Below, piece by piece: positions 38,999-44,549 of a DNA stretch of 46,097 bases. Below the pieces are notes generated by a model. That model worked only from the letters and a program-made list of their open reading frames with translations, was not told the origin of the DNA and ran no database searches. The position numbers were made by a program, and so were the translations under genes. Each line of letters starts with the position of its first letter. Within the stretch, counting starts at the first letter, position 1. The DNA is from Chthonomonadales bacterium (lineage in GTDB: Bacteria > Armatimonadota > Chthonomonadetes > Chthonomonadales > CAJBBX01): the NCBI GenBank assembly GCA_013360745.1, contig JABWBA010000020.1, positions 1-46,097 on the forward strand, read 5' to 3'.

Positions 38999-39050
38999 GG
39001 CCTGATATCTTGTTATGCACGCCGCAACACTGAGTAGGAGGCAACACACC

Positions 39051-39884
39051 TTGACCAATCCCGACGAAGAGATCACCGGTACGCTCGCCTTATTTACCGA
39101 GGAAGATGAAGCGCGCCGAACCGGCAGCAACAGTACGATGGAACAGGCCTTTACTGAGGTCGATGCCGCGATTGCCGGGCTGATCAAGGAGGCTAACCGA
39201 TATCTCTCTGCGCTTAAGTCGCTGCAGACGGAGAACTCCGCCGGGAATGTCGTTGGCATCGCCAAAGCGGCGGAGCAGGCCGGACGCTTGCGTGATGAAC
39301 TCCAGCATCCAGCGCAGGTGAAGATCGTAGAGGCTCCCGAGGCTGTCGCATGGTTGGCTTCCGACGCGTGGAGGCGCGAGATCGGAGATGCGCTCCGCGC
39401 GCATGGATTGGCGGTGATCGAAGACTCCAGCGGAGCGCTTCTCTGTCCGCCAGTCGCGCTGGTTGCGCATCCCAATAAAACGGCGATCATGGTCGGGCGT
39501 AGCCTGGTGCGAACAATCCGACCCGATCCGCTCGCACTGAAGATCAAGCCCCTCCGGGATCGTGACGCCGGTGCGAAAACGCCCGAGTTCCTCGATAAGC
39601 TGCACGAGGCGACGCTTCAGATCGCAGGCGCAACGGACCGGAGGGCGACGTTCCGCAGGATCTACGCGCAGTTCTGTATTGCACCCGGATGGAAGAAGGA
39701 CAACTCAGAGCTTGAGTTCGGTCAGCAGATCTATGCCCTCCGGGAGTCTGGCATTCAGACTACGAAAGACGGCACGCGATACCAGATCCAGGAACCGAGC
39801 GGAAAAGTCAAACGATCCGACATCTTCATTGTCTACGGCGCCGACGGTCGAGAGCATGAATTCTACGCCATTCGGTTCTTCTGA
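39051..39884 (+). CDS. Unknown protein, first gene of candidate defence operon
   Basis: This 277-aa protein has no recognised family. The TTG at 39051 is chosen because AGGAGG lies 9 nt upstream; the in-frame ATG at 39015 would sit only about 10 nt after the predicted transcript start. Residues 30-90 are helical and could form a coiled coil (AAIAGLIKEANRYLSALKSL). The centre has a possible winged-helix pattern (WRREIGDALRAHGLAVIED) and the later part is rich in basic residues. It is not a nuclease or methyltransferase by any motif I can see. It may act as adaptor or DNA-contact subunit to the ATPase pair that follows (inference). The stop is followed at once by the ribosome site of the next gene. 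Confidence 0.75.
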   Translation: MTNPDEEITGTLALFTEEDEARRTGSNSTMEQAFTEVDAAIAGLIKEANRYLSALKSLQTENSAGNVVGIAKAAEQAGRLRDELQHPAQVKIVEAPEAVAWLASDAWRREIGDALRAHGLAVIEDSSGALLCPPVALVAHPNKTAIMVGRSLVRTIRPDPLALKIKPLRDRDAGAKTPEFLDKLHEATLQIAGATDRRATFRRIYAQFCIAPGWKKDNSELEFGQQIYALRESGIQTTKDGTRYQIQEPSGKVKRSDIFIVYGADGREHEFYAIRFF

Positions 39885-39896
39885 GGAGGCTGTCCC

Positions 39897-41006
39897 ATGT
39901 ACGATGATCGCCCAACGCCGCAGCTGACGGCAGACGTCTGGCTGCGCGGATTCGCCGACCGCTACCTACGGGACTACGTCCCGTCCGGCGGTTCGGTGAT
40001 CCGTTTTGTCTCAGGGACAGATCCAGCGCTGGCGCTAGTGCAGTCCGGGCTGCAAAGCCTGGCGGCTGAAGGGAACTACCACTACTGTCTGCTCGACGCG
40101 AACAGACGTACAGCTGAAGATAAGCCGCCGAACCTCCATAGCATCGAACGATTCTATGCAGCCGTCACCGAGCATGTGGACTGGCTGGAGTGGGCCGAGG
40201 AACAGGCGCGCAAGGCGCTGAGCGAACTGGGATTAGACCTCCCCGACGGCGTGGACCTCGGCGATCTGGAGGCCATCGCCGAAGCCAATCGAACAGACCC
40301 CAAACATATCACGAATCGAGTTGAGTGGGCGATGCGGGATGAGCGAAGGGATCGTTCCACAACGATCGAATACCACAGCGCGACCACCAACCTATGGGTG
40401 GACTGGCTGCTGCCGGACAAAGCCATTCCCGGGCGCAGGAAGGTGCTCTCCGCGTGGCTTTCGGGAGAAACACCGCCCACCGGCGGGGCGAGCGTCCTGA
40501 AGAGGTACCAGATCTACGGAAAGATCGGCCCCGCGAACGGACGACACTTCCTTGCCTCCTTCTGCGAATGGCTGCGACAGGTCGGCCGATCGGGTCTCCT
40601 GGTGACGCTCGATTTCCGGGCGTACGAGCGATCCGGCAGGCGCAGATCACCGAGTGAGACCGCACTTGCCTCCTTGAGGAGCGCCCACAAGAATGGCGCG
40701 GATTTCGACGAGTTGTACCGGCTTCTGGAACTTGCCAAGTCGGACGATGGCGGCTTGGGATACGGGAAGCGTCCTTATGAGCAGATGCTGTCACTCCTCC
40801 GACGATTCATCGATGAGATCGATCGCTTTCGGTCCTTTGCACTGGTCGTCCTGATGTCGCCGCAGTACTTCGCTCCGAATGATCCTCACGAGCGTAGATA
40901 CACCGACTACAGCGCTCTCAGCACGAGGATCGGGGACGAAGTGAGCGATCGACACCGGGCCAACCCGGATGCAGCGCTCGTCCGGCTCGGGGAGGTGGAG
41001 CGATGA
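39897..41006 (+). CDS. BrxD/DUF2791-like protein without P-loop (predicted pseudo-ATPase)
   Basis: This 369-aa protein lies between the unknown first gene and the ATPase, whose start it overlaps by 4 nt (ATGA). Its layout mirrors that gene. Where the ATPase has APFGQGKTHLL, this one reads FVSGTDPALALVQSGL, so Walker A is missing. Where the ATPase has VVFFDE, this one reads LLVTLDFRAYE, keeping one Asp but losing the following Glu. I infer a paralogue that has lost ATP hydrolysis and serves as a scaffold. GAGGAGG precedes the ATG at 39897. Support rests on pattern similarity, not on an alignment score. Confidence 0.65.
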   Translation: MYDDRPTPQLTADVWLRGFADRYLRDYVPSGGSVIRFVSGTDPALALVQSGLQSLAAEGNYHYCLLDANRRTAEDKPPNLHSIERFYAAVTEHVDWLEWAEEQARKALSELGLDLPDGVDLGDLEAIAEANRTDPKHITNRVEWAMRDERRDRSTTIEYHSATTNLWVDWLLPDKAIPGRRKVLSAWLSGETPPTGGASVLKRYQIYGKIGPANGRHFLASFCEWLRQVGRSGLLVTLDFRAYERSGRRRSPSETALASLRSAHKNGADFDELYRLLELAKSDDGGLGYGKRPYEQMLSLLRRFIDEIDRFRSFALVVLMSPQYFAPNDPHERRYTDYSALSTRIGDEVSDRHRANPDAALVRLGEVER

Positions 41007-42235
41007 CACCCGATGTTCTGGACGCCCGCAAGGCGATCGAAGCTCTCCGCTCCGGTGTCCCCTCCCGTACGGCGCTGAAAGAGCTGGGTTCTACCGATAC
41101 GGACCTGATCGATGTCTTTATGTCGCGGCTCGAATGCGTGAGGAACGCAAAGGGAACGGAGCCGCTTGGATACCAGGCTCCCTTTGGACAGGGCAAGACG
41201 CACCTCCTCATCCAGCTTCGGACTCTGGCCGAAGAGGCCGGATTCGCCACATCCGTTGTCGTTGTGAGTCCAGAGACTCCGCTCGGCAACCCCGTTGCCG
41301 TTCTGGCGGAGATCAGCCGCAACGCCTCTGTCGCGGACAAGCTTGGCAACGCGCTCCGCGAGCTCCTCCCCTCGGCCAGGACGGGTACTGACGAGTGGGC
41401 CTCGCTACGAATCTGGGCCACGGAGGCGGAGATCGTCCAGCGTTTCCAGGCTCTCATGTTTCTCTATGAGGAATACAGCGCCGACACGGAGTTCCAAGCG
41501 AAGATCCTCGAAGACATCCAGGGCAAGCCGATGACACAGGCCGAGATCAACCATGCGCTCAAGGAGATCGATCAGAGGGCTGCCTACAACCTCCGCGGGA
41601 CCCCGCCGTTACGGGCGCTCGCGCCAGAGCGAATCCGTGTGCTGGCCCGATGGTTCCGGGCGTATCGCAGGCACGGCCTGGTCGTGTTCTTTGACGAGCT
41701 GGAACGGCTCGGGAGTTTCTCCCAGAAACAGAGGATGCTGGCGTATGAACAGATCGATTGGTGGACCCGCATTACGCGCGAAGACGGTTCGGCCCTTCTA
41801 CCGGTCTGGTTCACGACCGACGATCTGGCAGCCATCACAGAGAAGGATGAGCGGGGCGTGGCGTCCGAGCTCTTTGGCGGGCTCAGTGATTCCGAGTCGA
41901 AGACCAGCATCGCCGAACGGCAAGCAGCGTCTCCTCGGTGGCGCGGAATACAGGCGCTCAGCAACCTGTCCTTGCTAGAACCTCCTGACGTCCATGCCTT
42001 GCGAGCTCTCCAGACTAGACTCGCTGAACTATATGGGCGTGCCTACAGCATTGAGCGCATCTCCGACCTCGAGATCCAGAGTCAGCCGTCGTCGATTCGG
42101 GAAGAGATTCGTCGGTGGATCGCCTACTGGGATATGGAGCGGCTCTATCCCGGCTATGTCCCGGATATCGCCCTGCATGCCGTCGGGGAGGACAGCACTG
42201 GCGAATGGTCGGGTGACGAGGCAAACGAAGAGTAA
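41003..42235 (+). CDS. BrxD-like (DUF2791-type) P-loop ATPase
   Basis: This 410-aa protein begins with DARKAIEALRSGVPSRTAL, typical of the ATP-binding proteins of BREX and related systems (BrxD). Walker A is APFGQGKT at residues 59-66, Walker B is LVVFFDE at 226-232 (D231, E232), and TTDDL near 275 resembles a sensor 1 position. The C-terminal third is helical. An ATPase of this kind is expected to remodel protein-DNA complexes or sense foreign DNA. GGGGAGG lies upstream of ATG 41003, and it overlaps the preceding gene by 4 nt. Confidence 0.8.
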   Translation: MTPDVLDARKAIEALRSGVPSRTALKELGSTDTDLIDVFMSRLECVRNAKGTEPLGYQAPFGQGKTHLLIQLRTLAEEAGFATSVVVVSPETPLGNPVAVLAEISRNASVADKLGNALRELLPSARTGTDEWASLRIWATEAEIVQRFQALMFLYEEYSADTEFQAKILEDIQGKPMTQAEINHALKEIDQRAAYNLRGTPPLRALAPERIRVLARWFRAYRRHGLVVFFDELERLGSFSQKQRMLAYEQIDWWTRITREDGSALLPVWFTTDDLAAITEKDERGVASELFGGLSDSESKTSIAERQAASPRWRGIQALSNLSLLEPPDVHALRALQTRLAELYGRAYSIERISDLEIQSQPSSIREEIRRWIAYWDMERLYPGYVPDIALHAVGEDSTGEWSGDEANEE

Positions 42236-42259: not shown

Positions 42260-42775
42260 ATGTCAATCCCCTATCGGAAACCTCCAGTTGCCGCTTCGCA
42301 GGCCGCCATCGCTTATCTGAGCGTCCAACGGGCACGGGACGGAGCCTACATCGGCGCCATGCTCGTGACCGATCTGCAGGGGCGCCCGATCGAGTTTCTT
42401 CATAATCGGGTGGAGGCTCCAAGAGGATTCCTCTGGCCTGCAGAGCAGGTGCGAGCCGCGGGCGTTACAGCTCTCTGCCACTCGCTGTTCGACGCTAGCG
42501 CTCGTCAACCCGCCCTATTGCTCGCCGAAGATGAACTAGGATCGGTGGAGTTCTGTCGCGAATCCCTCGGGGCTCTGGTGCCCTTCGCACTGATCCACAC
42601 CGACGATTGGATCTGGGTGGGGCGCCCGCCGGCGCCGGGGGCTGAAGCGCATGGCCTGGCAGAAGCGCTCCGTGCGCGGTCCGACCCGCTGGAACCGTTT
42701 ACCCGAATCCGGGCAGGCTTACGGGAGGTCTACCCGGACGGAAAGTCAGGCCCGCTACATGCCGATACCTCATAG
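42260..42775 (+). CDS. Unknown small protein of candidate defence operon
   Basis: This 171-aa protein is not from a family I can name. An alpha/beta pattern is visible, with YIGAMLVTDLQGRPIEFLHN near residue 30 as the most distinctive segment, and a Trp-rich stretch TDDWIWVGRPPAPG near 114-127. It has no catalytic motif. It begins 24 nt after the ATPase stop without a strong ribosome site and overlaps the helicase gene by 17 nt, which argues for co-production. A substrate-adaptor or DNA-binding role is possible. Confidence 0.65.
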   Translation: MSIPYRKPPVAASQAAIAYLSVQRARDGAYIGAMLVTDLQGRPIEFLHNRVEAPRGFLWPAEQVRAAGVTALCHSLFDASARQPALLLAEDELGSVEFCRESLGALVPFALIHTDDWIWVGRPPAPGAEAHGLAEALRARSDPLEPFTRIRAGLREVYPDGKSGPLHADTS

Positions 42776-44549
42776 TCCGCCTGCGTCTATCCGGGTCAGG
42801 CCGCGAGGACCGGTATCGTTGGTCCTGGGCCCGTGGCGCCCGGCAGCCGATAGAGTTCACCGGCTCACTATTCCCCGGTATGCTCCCCCACCCAGTACCA
42901 GACTCGAAGCTCCAGGCCTCATCACGCCTAATGCGGTCTGCACGCCTGTTGCGTCTACGATAGCCGGGCCGGCTATTGTAGAGCGGCTCCAACCTCCTCA
43001 GGCTCGATCAGCGAAACCAGAAGGCAACGAGAACGGAGAGTCCGATCCGGGTTCCGAATGGCTACCGTCCGACACCGGATCGGACGTGGACGGCCCAGGT
43101 TATCTCGCGGAACTCCTGTGGGCCATCCTGCAGCCGCCGATCGGTCTGGTGTTCGCATCCGACGGGGTACTGGAGTGGCCGGCGCCAATACGACCCTTTC
43201 AGATGAGCGGGGTTCAGGTTCTACTGGACCGAGCGGAGGTCCTCCTCGCCGACGAGATGGGCCTCGGGAAGACAGTGCAAACGATCGCCGCCCTGCGCGT
43301 CCTTGCCTTTCGAGGACTCATAGAGGCCTCCCTGGTTGTCTGTCCCGCGAGTCTGATCATCCAATGGCATCGGGAACTGGGGCGGTGGGCGCCAGAGCTG
43401 GTAACCCGCGCCGTTCGTGGTCGGGCGGAGGACCGAGCTATGCAATGGCGCCTGCACGCGCATGTGTACATAGTGTCGTACGAGACGTTGCGGGGTGATG
43501 TGCTGGACGTTCGGGACAGCCCAGCGCTGCGGCGGCGTTGGGATGTGGTCGTCCTTGACGAGGCGTCGCGAATCAAGAACCGTGACACGGACGTATCGCG
43601 TGCGTGTCGGCGCTTGCCGAGATCGCGCCGATGGGCGCTCACGGGTACGCCGCTCGAGAATCGTCCGGAGGACGTTGCATCCATTCTAGAGTTCCTGTTT
43701 GGGGATCCGGAGCAACGGCATCGCGTCGATCCGGATCCGCTATCCCTGCGAGGTGACCTCAGTCGGGTTCAGCTCCGACGCAAGAAGGCCGATGTGCTGC
43801 CCGAGTTACCGCCCAAAGATATCCATGATATCGTGCTGGAGTTGCCTGAGGCGCAGCGACGAGCCTATGATGAGGCCGAGCAACGGGGCATTCTACGCCT
43901 AAGGGAGTTTACGGCCCCGGTTACGATCGTGCATGTCCTTGAGCTCATCGCGCGGCTCAAGCAGCTATGCAACCATGAACCCGTGTCTTCTGAGAGCGGC
44001 AAACTCAATGATCTGGAGAACCGGCTTGCCGAGATCGTCGATAACGGCGAGCGTGCGCTGATATTCAGCCAGTACACCGACCGATCTTACGGTGCACGAT
44101 GGCTGGCTGCTTCGCTCAGCCGGTTCAACCCGGTCCTGTACACCGGGGACATGTCGGGTGATGAACGACAGCGACAGGTCGACGCGTTCATGGGGAATCG
44201 CGACCGCAAGGTTATGGTTCTATCATTGCGCGCAGGCGGCATGGGGCTGAACCTCCAATCGGCGTCGTATGTCTTCCACTTCGACCGATGGTGGAATCCG
44301 GCGATCGAGAGCCAGGCCGAGGATCGCGCTCACCGCATGGGCCGCACAACTCCGGTAACCGTCTACCGCTACATATGCGCCAACACGATTGAGGAACGGA
44401 TCGACGCCAGGCTCCGGGAAAAGCGAGCGCTGTTTTCCGAAGTGGTTGATGGGGTCTCGCTGGATGTTGGGCAGATGTTGAGTGAAGAGGAACTGTTCGG
44501 GCTGTTCGGGCTCCAGCCGCCCGGCGCGGCGGGGCAGCGACGCACGTAA
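42759..44549 (+). CDS. SNF2-type (SF2) DNA helicase/translocase
   Basis: This 596-aa protein has ATG 42759 chosen for length and overlap; an open frame from 42651 exists but lies inside the previous gene. The N-terminal 115 residues are Pro/Arg-rich and likely disordered. Motif I is LLADEMGLGKT (162-172), motif II DEAS (267-270, instead of the commoner DEAH), motif III LTGTP (294-298) and motif VI QAEDRAHRMGR (519-529), so both SNF2 halves are complete and active. In defence loci such enzymes act as DNA translocases or remodellers. It ends 27 nt before the next gene. Confidence 0.9.
   Translation: MPIPHSPPASIRVRPRGPVSLVLGPWRPAADRVHRLTIPRYAPPPSTRLEAPGLITPNAVCTPVASTIAGPAIVERLQPPQARSAKPEGNENGESDPGSEWLPSDTGSDVDGPGYLAELLWAILQPPIGLVFASDGVLEWPAPIRPFQMSGVQVLLDRAEVLLADEMGLGKTVQTIAALRVLAFRGLIEASLVVCPASLIIQWHRELGRWAPELVTRAVRGRAEDRAMQWRLHAHVYIVSYETLRGDVLDVRDSPALRRRWDVVVLDEASRIKNRDTDVSRACRRLPRSRRWALTGTPLENRPEDVASILEFLFGDPEQRHRVDPDPLSLRGDLSRVQLRRKKADVLPELPPKDIHDIVLELPEAQRRAYDEAEQRGILRLREFTAPVTIVHVLELIARLKQLCNHEPVSSESGKLNDLENRLAEIVDNGERALIFSQYTDRSYGARWLAASLSRFNPVLYTGDMSGDERQRQVDAFMGNRDRKVMVLSLRAGGMGLNLQSASYVFHFDRWWNPAIESQAEDRAHRMGRTTPVTVYRYICANTIEERIDARLREKRALFSEVVDGVSLDVGQMLSEEELFGLFGLQPPGAAGQRRT

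Follow-up and report, generated by a model that had tools for sequence, protein, structure and literature searches.

Two neighboring genes of a five-gene operon probably encode a hetero-oligomeric ATPase in which one subunit (B) would act as arginine-finger donor to the other (C), the pair would act as a switch for an SNF2-family motor (E), and the likely setting is defense. This reading draws on sequences, on structure models and on analogy with known systems. The operon lies in the 46,097-nucleotide stretch of Chthonomonadales DNA that we analyzed (the window), and its five genes, A to E, all run in the same direction (Table 1). Dead ATPases beside live ones recur in defense systems and are difficult to interpret. 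Here, live pairs can be set beside eroding intermediates and a dead clade, and one residue is singled out by the pattern of loss. If the reading is true, B would be a second inactive AAA+ protein that completes the ATP site of its partner, this time outside BREX type I, and the operon would be an uncharacterized one with an SNF2-Mrr effector.

Table 1. Genes and motifs of the operon, by position in the window
Feature	Position	Strand	Description
A	39015..39884	+	289 aa; no named family (no match in Pfam, PADLOC or NCBIfam)
B	39897..41006	+	369 aa; inactive ORC/BrxD-type AAA+ subunit
B residues 33-42	39993..40022	+	First core strand and position of the lost P-loop (model, alignment)
B residues 234-240	40596..40616	+	Walker B strand; keeps Asp239, has Phe in place of Glu
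B residues 338-344	40908..40928	+	YSALSTR; candidate arginine finger Arg344
B stop / C start	41003..41006	+	Four-base overlap
C	41003..42235	+	410 aa; active-looking ORC/BrxD-type AAA+ ATPase with lid
C residues 61-67	41183..41203	+	P-loop FGQGKTH
C residues 226-232	41678..41698	+	Walker B strand (VVFFDE), Asp231 and Glu232
D	42260..42775	+	171 aa; no named family; conserved small partner of SNF2 protein
E	42759..44549	+	SNF2-family motor, 596 aa from the likely start

The first-pass annotation had placed an inactive ATPase at 39897 and an active one at 41003, and both reading frames are present. Their overlap, together with a near-constant junction in relatives (-19 to +25 bases in all 28 pairs, exactly -4 in 17 of them), suggests coupled synthesis. 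Further downstream, the longest frame of the SNF2 gene begins at 42651, inside D in another frame; the ATG at 42759, which overlaps D by 17 bases, is likely the true start.

By profile comparison and predicted structure, B and C both belong to the ORC/Cdc6-type AAA+ proteins and are of the BrxC/BrxD kind. Their likeness is remote, because a BLASTP comparison of the two yields only chance matches and none of significance. Comparing 19 B with 17 C sequences, hhalign gave a score of 43.0 (E 8.6e-5, probability 60%), and none of 50 column-shuffled C alignments scored above 30.4; when the alignments (A4 and A5) were restricted to close relatives, the E value was just 0.01. The proposal that the layout of B follows that of C was borne out, since the P-loop helix and Walker B fall in register when the two profiles are aligned. 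AlphaFold2 models built on alignments of 17 (B) and 15 (C) sequences reached a mean pLDDT of 82.6 and 85.8, respectively, with the core elements in the same order. The two predicted structures have a common fold, an ORC/Cdc6-type AAA+ protein is the best match for each, and a different fold for the 39897 product, named beforehand as the outcome that would speak against an ATPase pair, was not seen in the predicted structure.

Among the PDB chains that VIA re-aligned, archaeal ORC2 (1w5t_A) ranked top for B (Z 10.1, rmsd 3.1, 166 residues) as well as for C (Z 15.8, rmsd 4.1, 260 residues). BrxC (9zdx_C) aligned to the B model over 207 residues (VIA; Z 9.1, rmsd 4.2) and was the first Foldseek match for C (E 5.1e-3, probability 0.99). 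The top Z of B is modest (10), and its first 16 VIA rows are all ORC, Cdc6, BrxC or RdrA entries, in lists where the absence of a family does not exclude that family. Foldseek gave no match for the B model in the PDB at E <= 0.001, and neither BrxC nor ORC was reached when the PDB was searched by sequence with B or C singly, with a B profile or with a first-subunit profile. The Pfam model PF10923 (BrxC_BrxD) matched C well over its curated cut-off of 22.2 bits (50.1 bits, E 2.7e-13) and B marginally below it (22.1 bits, E 8.6e-5); the B of one relative (G030), taken together with its frame neighbors, passes (27.3 bits). B also matched the BrxD models of PADLOC (E 1.1e-6) and NCBIfam (E 5.9e-6). 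The NCBIfam model (NF033438) scored B at 25.6 and C at 31.2 bits, far under its curated 350-bit cut-off, and the matches of B to BrxC/BrxD models of all three collections are confined to the central/Walker B region.

Of 291 genomes from the window's phylum, 19 have B, and genomes of one genus can differ in whether they have it. Most of its relatives are in Armatimonadota, many of them in Chthonomonadales, and other groups have it too. We assembled 30 B-clade loci; L044-L049, L052 and L057-L059 had already been counted under G handles and were counted once. In G038 (L030) and G176 (L034), C is split in two frames by assembly error or inactivation, and these were left out, so that 28 C proteins represent the 30 loci. 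Searching 41 relatives for the BrxC/BrxD family retrieved operons with two neighboring ATPases that both have an intact P-loop (live pairs, with a first and a second subunit). We analyzed 17 live pairs and left out 15 further matches of this type (13 genomes plus second matches in G293 and G435). The live-pair operons (L072, L073, L081-L084 and L120-L130) have various adjacent helicases (BrxHI-like in L072, PbeA-like in L120, DEAD-box in L083 and L125), several have none, and they apparently represent a widespread unnamed core. The same phylum also holds three single BrxD/SngB-like ATPases (L074, L075 and L076), with a DEAD-type helicase beside the first two; these single-ATPase loci look Shango-like.

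At the P-loop position, VLVGSEGTGKTHLL of a live relative (L073) aligns with RFVSGTDPALALV of B, and in the B model strand 33-39 runs straight into helix 42-58, in agreement with the register proposed from the window alone. Counting sequences rather than independent events (the P-loop loss in B is one event in the tree), the P-loop Lys is found in 0 of 30 B proteins, all 17 live first subunits, 28 of 28 C proteins, all 17 second subunits and the 3 single proteins. The Walker B Glu follows nearly the same distribution (B 0/30, live first subunits 15/17, C 28/28, second subunits 17/17, single proteins 3/3). Its loss from B had been read off correctly by the first-pass annotation: the Walker B-like stretch is strand 234-239 of the model, and the Asp is kept in 29 of 30 B relatives, while all 28 C proteins have DE. 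A GK[ST] occurs at other sites in 11 of the 30 B proteins, and GxxxxGK[ST] in none. The lid Arg, a residue of C (Arg366) that may be sensor 2, is present in 28/28 C, 17/17 second and 16/17 first subunits, and the position is a gap in 30/30 B.

The motif that B keeps is YxALxxR, present in all 30 B proteins, all 17 live first subunits and all 3 single BrxD/SngB-like proteins, as against none of the 28 C proteins and one of the 17 second subunits; by chance, 76 of 4750 shuffled proteins contain it. Its Arg is the sole invariant Arg in 16 first-subunit and single proteins and is located between strands 4 and 5. The arginine finger of AAA+ proteins sits between these two strands. For BrxD, PMC12839542 (section 24) places it at the base of strand 5. 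Position and conservation thus make Arg344 of B a candidate arginine finger. The model has low confidence in this region (pLDDT near 43), and BrxC R330 was not directly aligned to Arg344 because the PDB sequence search did not reach BrxC. In a gappy region of the alignment, the YxALxxR Arg column is still R in 4/28 C and 4/17 second subunits. R244 of C, invariant in C and conserved in only 9/17 second and 8/17 first subunits, could be the finger instead of Arg344. The motif counts indicate that the residues gone from B are those acting in cis, and that the one it retains would work in trans. C, as its sequences read, is without that trans element, the Arg conserved between strands 4 and 5. In second subunits the finger seems to have disappeared before the pocket did in first subunits, and the pocket of the first subunit may have become dispensable because of that earlier loss. 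Arg302 and Asp306 of B (LRRFIDEID) are invariant in B and in 16/17 live first subunits and are not conserved in C; they are a second position-specific mark, perhaps at an interface.

In a tree of 95 ATPases, B forms one clade (support 100) that groups with three live first subunits (99), and C forms one clade (99) that groups with the second subunits of those same three genomes (89). When five long rows and the columns of the motifs and the lid were removed, the values were 99, 98, 99 and 87. A single first subunit (F1_G032), on a long branch, is placed elsewhere. This topology implies that the ATPase pair is older than the loss and that the loss happened once, at the base of the B clade. Duplication followed by loss of catalysis, as first suggested, is therefore supported by the tree, but B is not a recent copy of C and the live pair is much older. 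Two of the three nearest live first subunits, G055 (DD) and G596 (DN), lack the Walker B Glu. B has no C-terminal lid: its chain ends 22-40 residues past the Arg column, compared with 81-132 in live first subunits. The lids of G055, G596 and G306 are shorter (81-92 residues against 108-132). Judged by their sequences, the first subunits of these three genomes are intermediates of erosion.

A close parallel to the pair is in type I BREX, where, in the accessible portion of PMC13326643, a crystal structure has the inactive BrxB giving R182 to the ATP pocket of BrxC, and BrxB raises the BrxC ATPase about 4-fold. BrxB-BrxC resembles B-C in that a Walker-less, lid-less AAA+ protein is paired with a live one (PMC13326643, same portion). 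The available part of PMC12839542 likewise describes BrxB without Walker motifs and without a lid. B has these features of the inactive STAND protein BrxB, an AAA+ core without Walker motifs and no C-terminal helical bundle, and its YxALxxR pattern would fit a BrxB-style donation of Arg. B differs from BrxB in resembling BrxC/BrxD, and Pfam, PADLOC and NCBIfam gave no BrxB-family match beyond noise, so that B would work like BrxB without membership of its family. C differs from BrxC in being a stand-alone ATPase of BrxD size, and PADLOC found no PglZ or PglX-type methyltransferase among A-E.

The BrxD-BrxHI dyad of type 2 BREX also has a stand-alone ORC/Cdc6-type ATPase beside an SF2 helicase, and BrxD is suggested to load BrxHI in the available text of PMC12839542 (section 24). 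The operon differs in having two ATPases, the first of them dead, and an SNF2 motor in place of a Ski2-like helicase. BrxD has the P-loop, Walker B and arginine finger in one protein, whereas B is without the first two and C without the third. Shango consists of SngA, SngB and SngC. SngB matches C weakly (E 9.6e-4) and both systems combine an ATPase with a helicase; however, no other Shango model matches A, B or D, and the operon has an SNF2 motor and two ATPases. E resembles the SNF2 proteins ZorD of Zorya, DpdE and DrmD of DISARM, and many E relatives carry an Mrr-type nuclease; among A-D, PADLOC found neither ZorA and ZorB nor the other partner genes of the Zorya, DpdE and DISARM systems. 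ORC/Cdc6 initiators and clamp loaders share their fold with B and C. They are hetero-oligomers in which some subunits do not hydrolyze ATP and yet complete the site of a neighbor. The operon differs from both as a bacterial accessory operon with a different motor. We found no published description of the operon or of a two-ATPase core, including in the available text of PMC12839542 (sections 21, 24, 28 and 29), in a search that excluded most subscription papers and preprints. From its genes, the cluster looks like an uncharacterized, BREX-like DNA defense machine.

From the motif pattern and the BREX analogy we infer that B is an arginine-finger donor, which refines the roles first suggested for it (scaffold, switch, ring or sensor). 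In the mechanism that we propose, ATP would be bound only in C, and B would dock on the face of C and supply the finger in trans, which would give one regulated ATP site per B-C contact, under the control of B. This switch would recruit, load or gate the SNF2 translocase E on foreign DNA. D would be a small partner of E and A a DNA- or target-contacting subunit, and in relatives whose E carries Mrr the outcome would be cleavage.

Of the 30 B-clade loci, A is present in 29, C in 30, D in 24 and E in 24. Five loci are without both D and E; genome-wide searches for SNF2 in their genomes found it only in much longer frames (G032, G047 and G435) or gave no match (G141 and G204). A aligned with the A-like genes of live-pair operons with hhalign E values of 2.3e-9 to 8.7e-12 (three groups, nine proteins), and 30 shuffles of one A-like group scored at most 20.2 against 84.4 for the real one. 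On these profiles, A is homologous to the gene that precedes live ATPase pairs, where tested. E matches PF00176 (E 2.7e-47), and its best PADLOC match is ZorD, with the DpdE and DISARM DrmD SNF2 proteins also among its best. Mrr_cat was found in 6 of the 10 E relatives tested, C-terminally in L046, L049, L059, L034, L115 and L117 (E 2e-21 to 6e-25), and the E of the window is without an Mrr nuclease domain. Two loci have an extra gene between C and D, which in L041 (3679-4065) resembles a PIN-domain toxin by eye and in L038 (9228-10265) encodes a 345-aa protein without a family. We tentatively suggest, as a possibility somewhat short of an even chance, an unnamed immune-type class whose core is A plus two ORC-type ATPases with one split site, the pocket in the second and the finger in the first. 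Its coupled helicase or helicase-nuclease would vary (BrxHI-like, PbeA-like, SNF2 alone or SNF2 with Mrr); along the SNF2 branch, the first ATPase would be dead with its finger kept, and in the nearest live relatives it would be eroding.

The gene content suggests that the operon probably serves defense against phages or plasmids. It could instead be a housekeeping machine for DNA remodeling or repair, which we hold to be unlikely. Such a role would suit the metabolic neighbors in the window (6PGD, adenosine deaminase and a dehydrogenase, by Pfam), the sparse defense genes in the flanks, and the absence of the operon from the plasmid and phage records searched and of B from the viral contigs searched. 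It does not suit the patchy distribution among congeners, the SNF2-Mrr fusion in most of the E relatives tested, the resemblance to BrxD, SngB and ZorD, or the DarT-DarG (macro domain) pair that lies at 11709-13425 of L036, near an operon that has A-B-C but neither D nor E. A PADLOC scan for defense islands covered 93 ORFs (92 of the 128 flanking ORFs of 22 loci, plus one insert between C and D) and found DarT, DarG, a Cas3-type helicase, an RtcR-CARF protein and a type II methyltransferase once each, and mad2 in three; we give it little weight because it had no control set. The neighbors are only weakly defense-like. We also sought an empty site in relatives through the flanking 6PGD and dehydrogenase genes, and none was shown because the best matches of these genes lie on different contigs in the relatives checked.

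Selection on B bears on the remaining alternatives to a finger donor. Seven close pairs give B a dN/dS of 0.05-0.25, and six give C 0.08-0.18; B is a single open frame at all 30 loci, and an alignment of 19 B sequences has 22 invariant columns with identity down to 26%. Purifying selection on B means that it is not a decaying gene, and together with the clade-wide loss of motifs it upholds the earlier suggestion that B is non-catalytic. A dead AAA+ subunit under selection might also be a sensor or adaptor that binds foreign DNA, a phage protein or E, and donates no finger. We consider this rather improbable. In the available text of PMC12839542 (section 21), inactive STAND modules in BREX and MoxR-vWA systems are proposed sensors, and B has invariants of its own, such as R216 (30/30 B against 2/17 live first subunits). 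Against a sensor or adaptor, the YxALxxR motif is not specific to B but common to live first subunits and the three single ATPases, and B is well conserved, unlike the fast-evolving inactive STANDs of the same text (PMC12839542). That B binds nucleotide in a non-canonical pocket, as a slow, structural ATP-binding subunit, is very unlikely; the model retains the core strands and nearly all B proteins have the Walker B Asp, but the P-loop Lys, the catalytic Glu, the lid Arg and the lid itself are gone from all 30 B proteins. An eroding gene on its way out, a reading to which we give hardly any credence, would account for the motif loss and for the Walker B Glu already missing from two of the three nearest live first subunits, but for the clade as a whole it is refuted by the open frames, the dN/dS values and the invariant columns.
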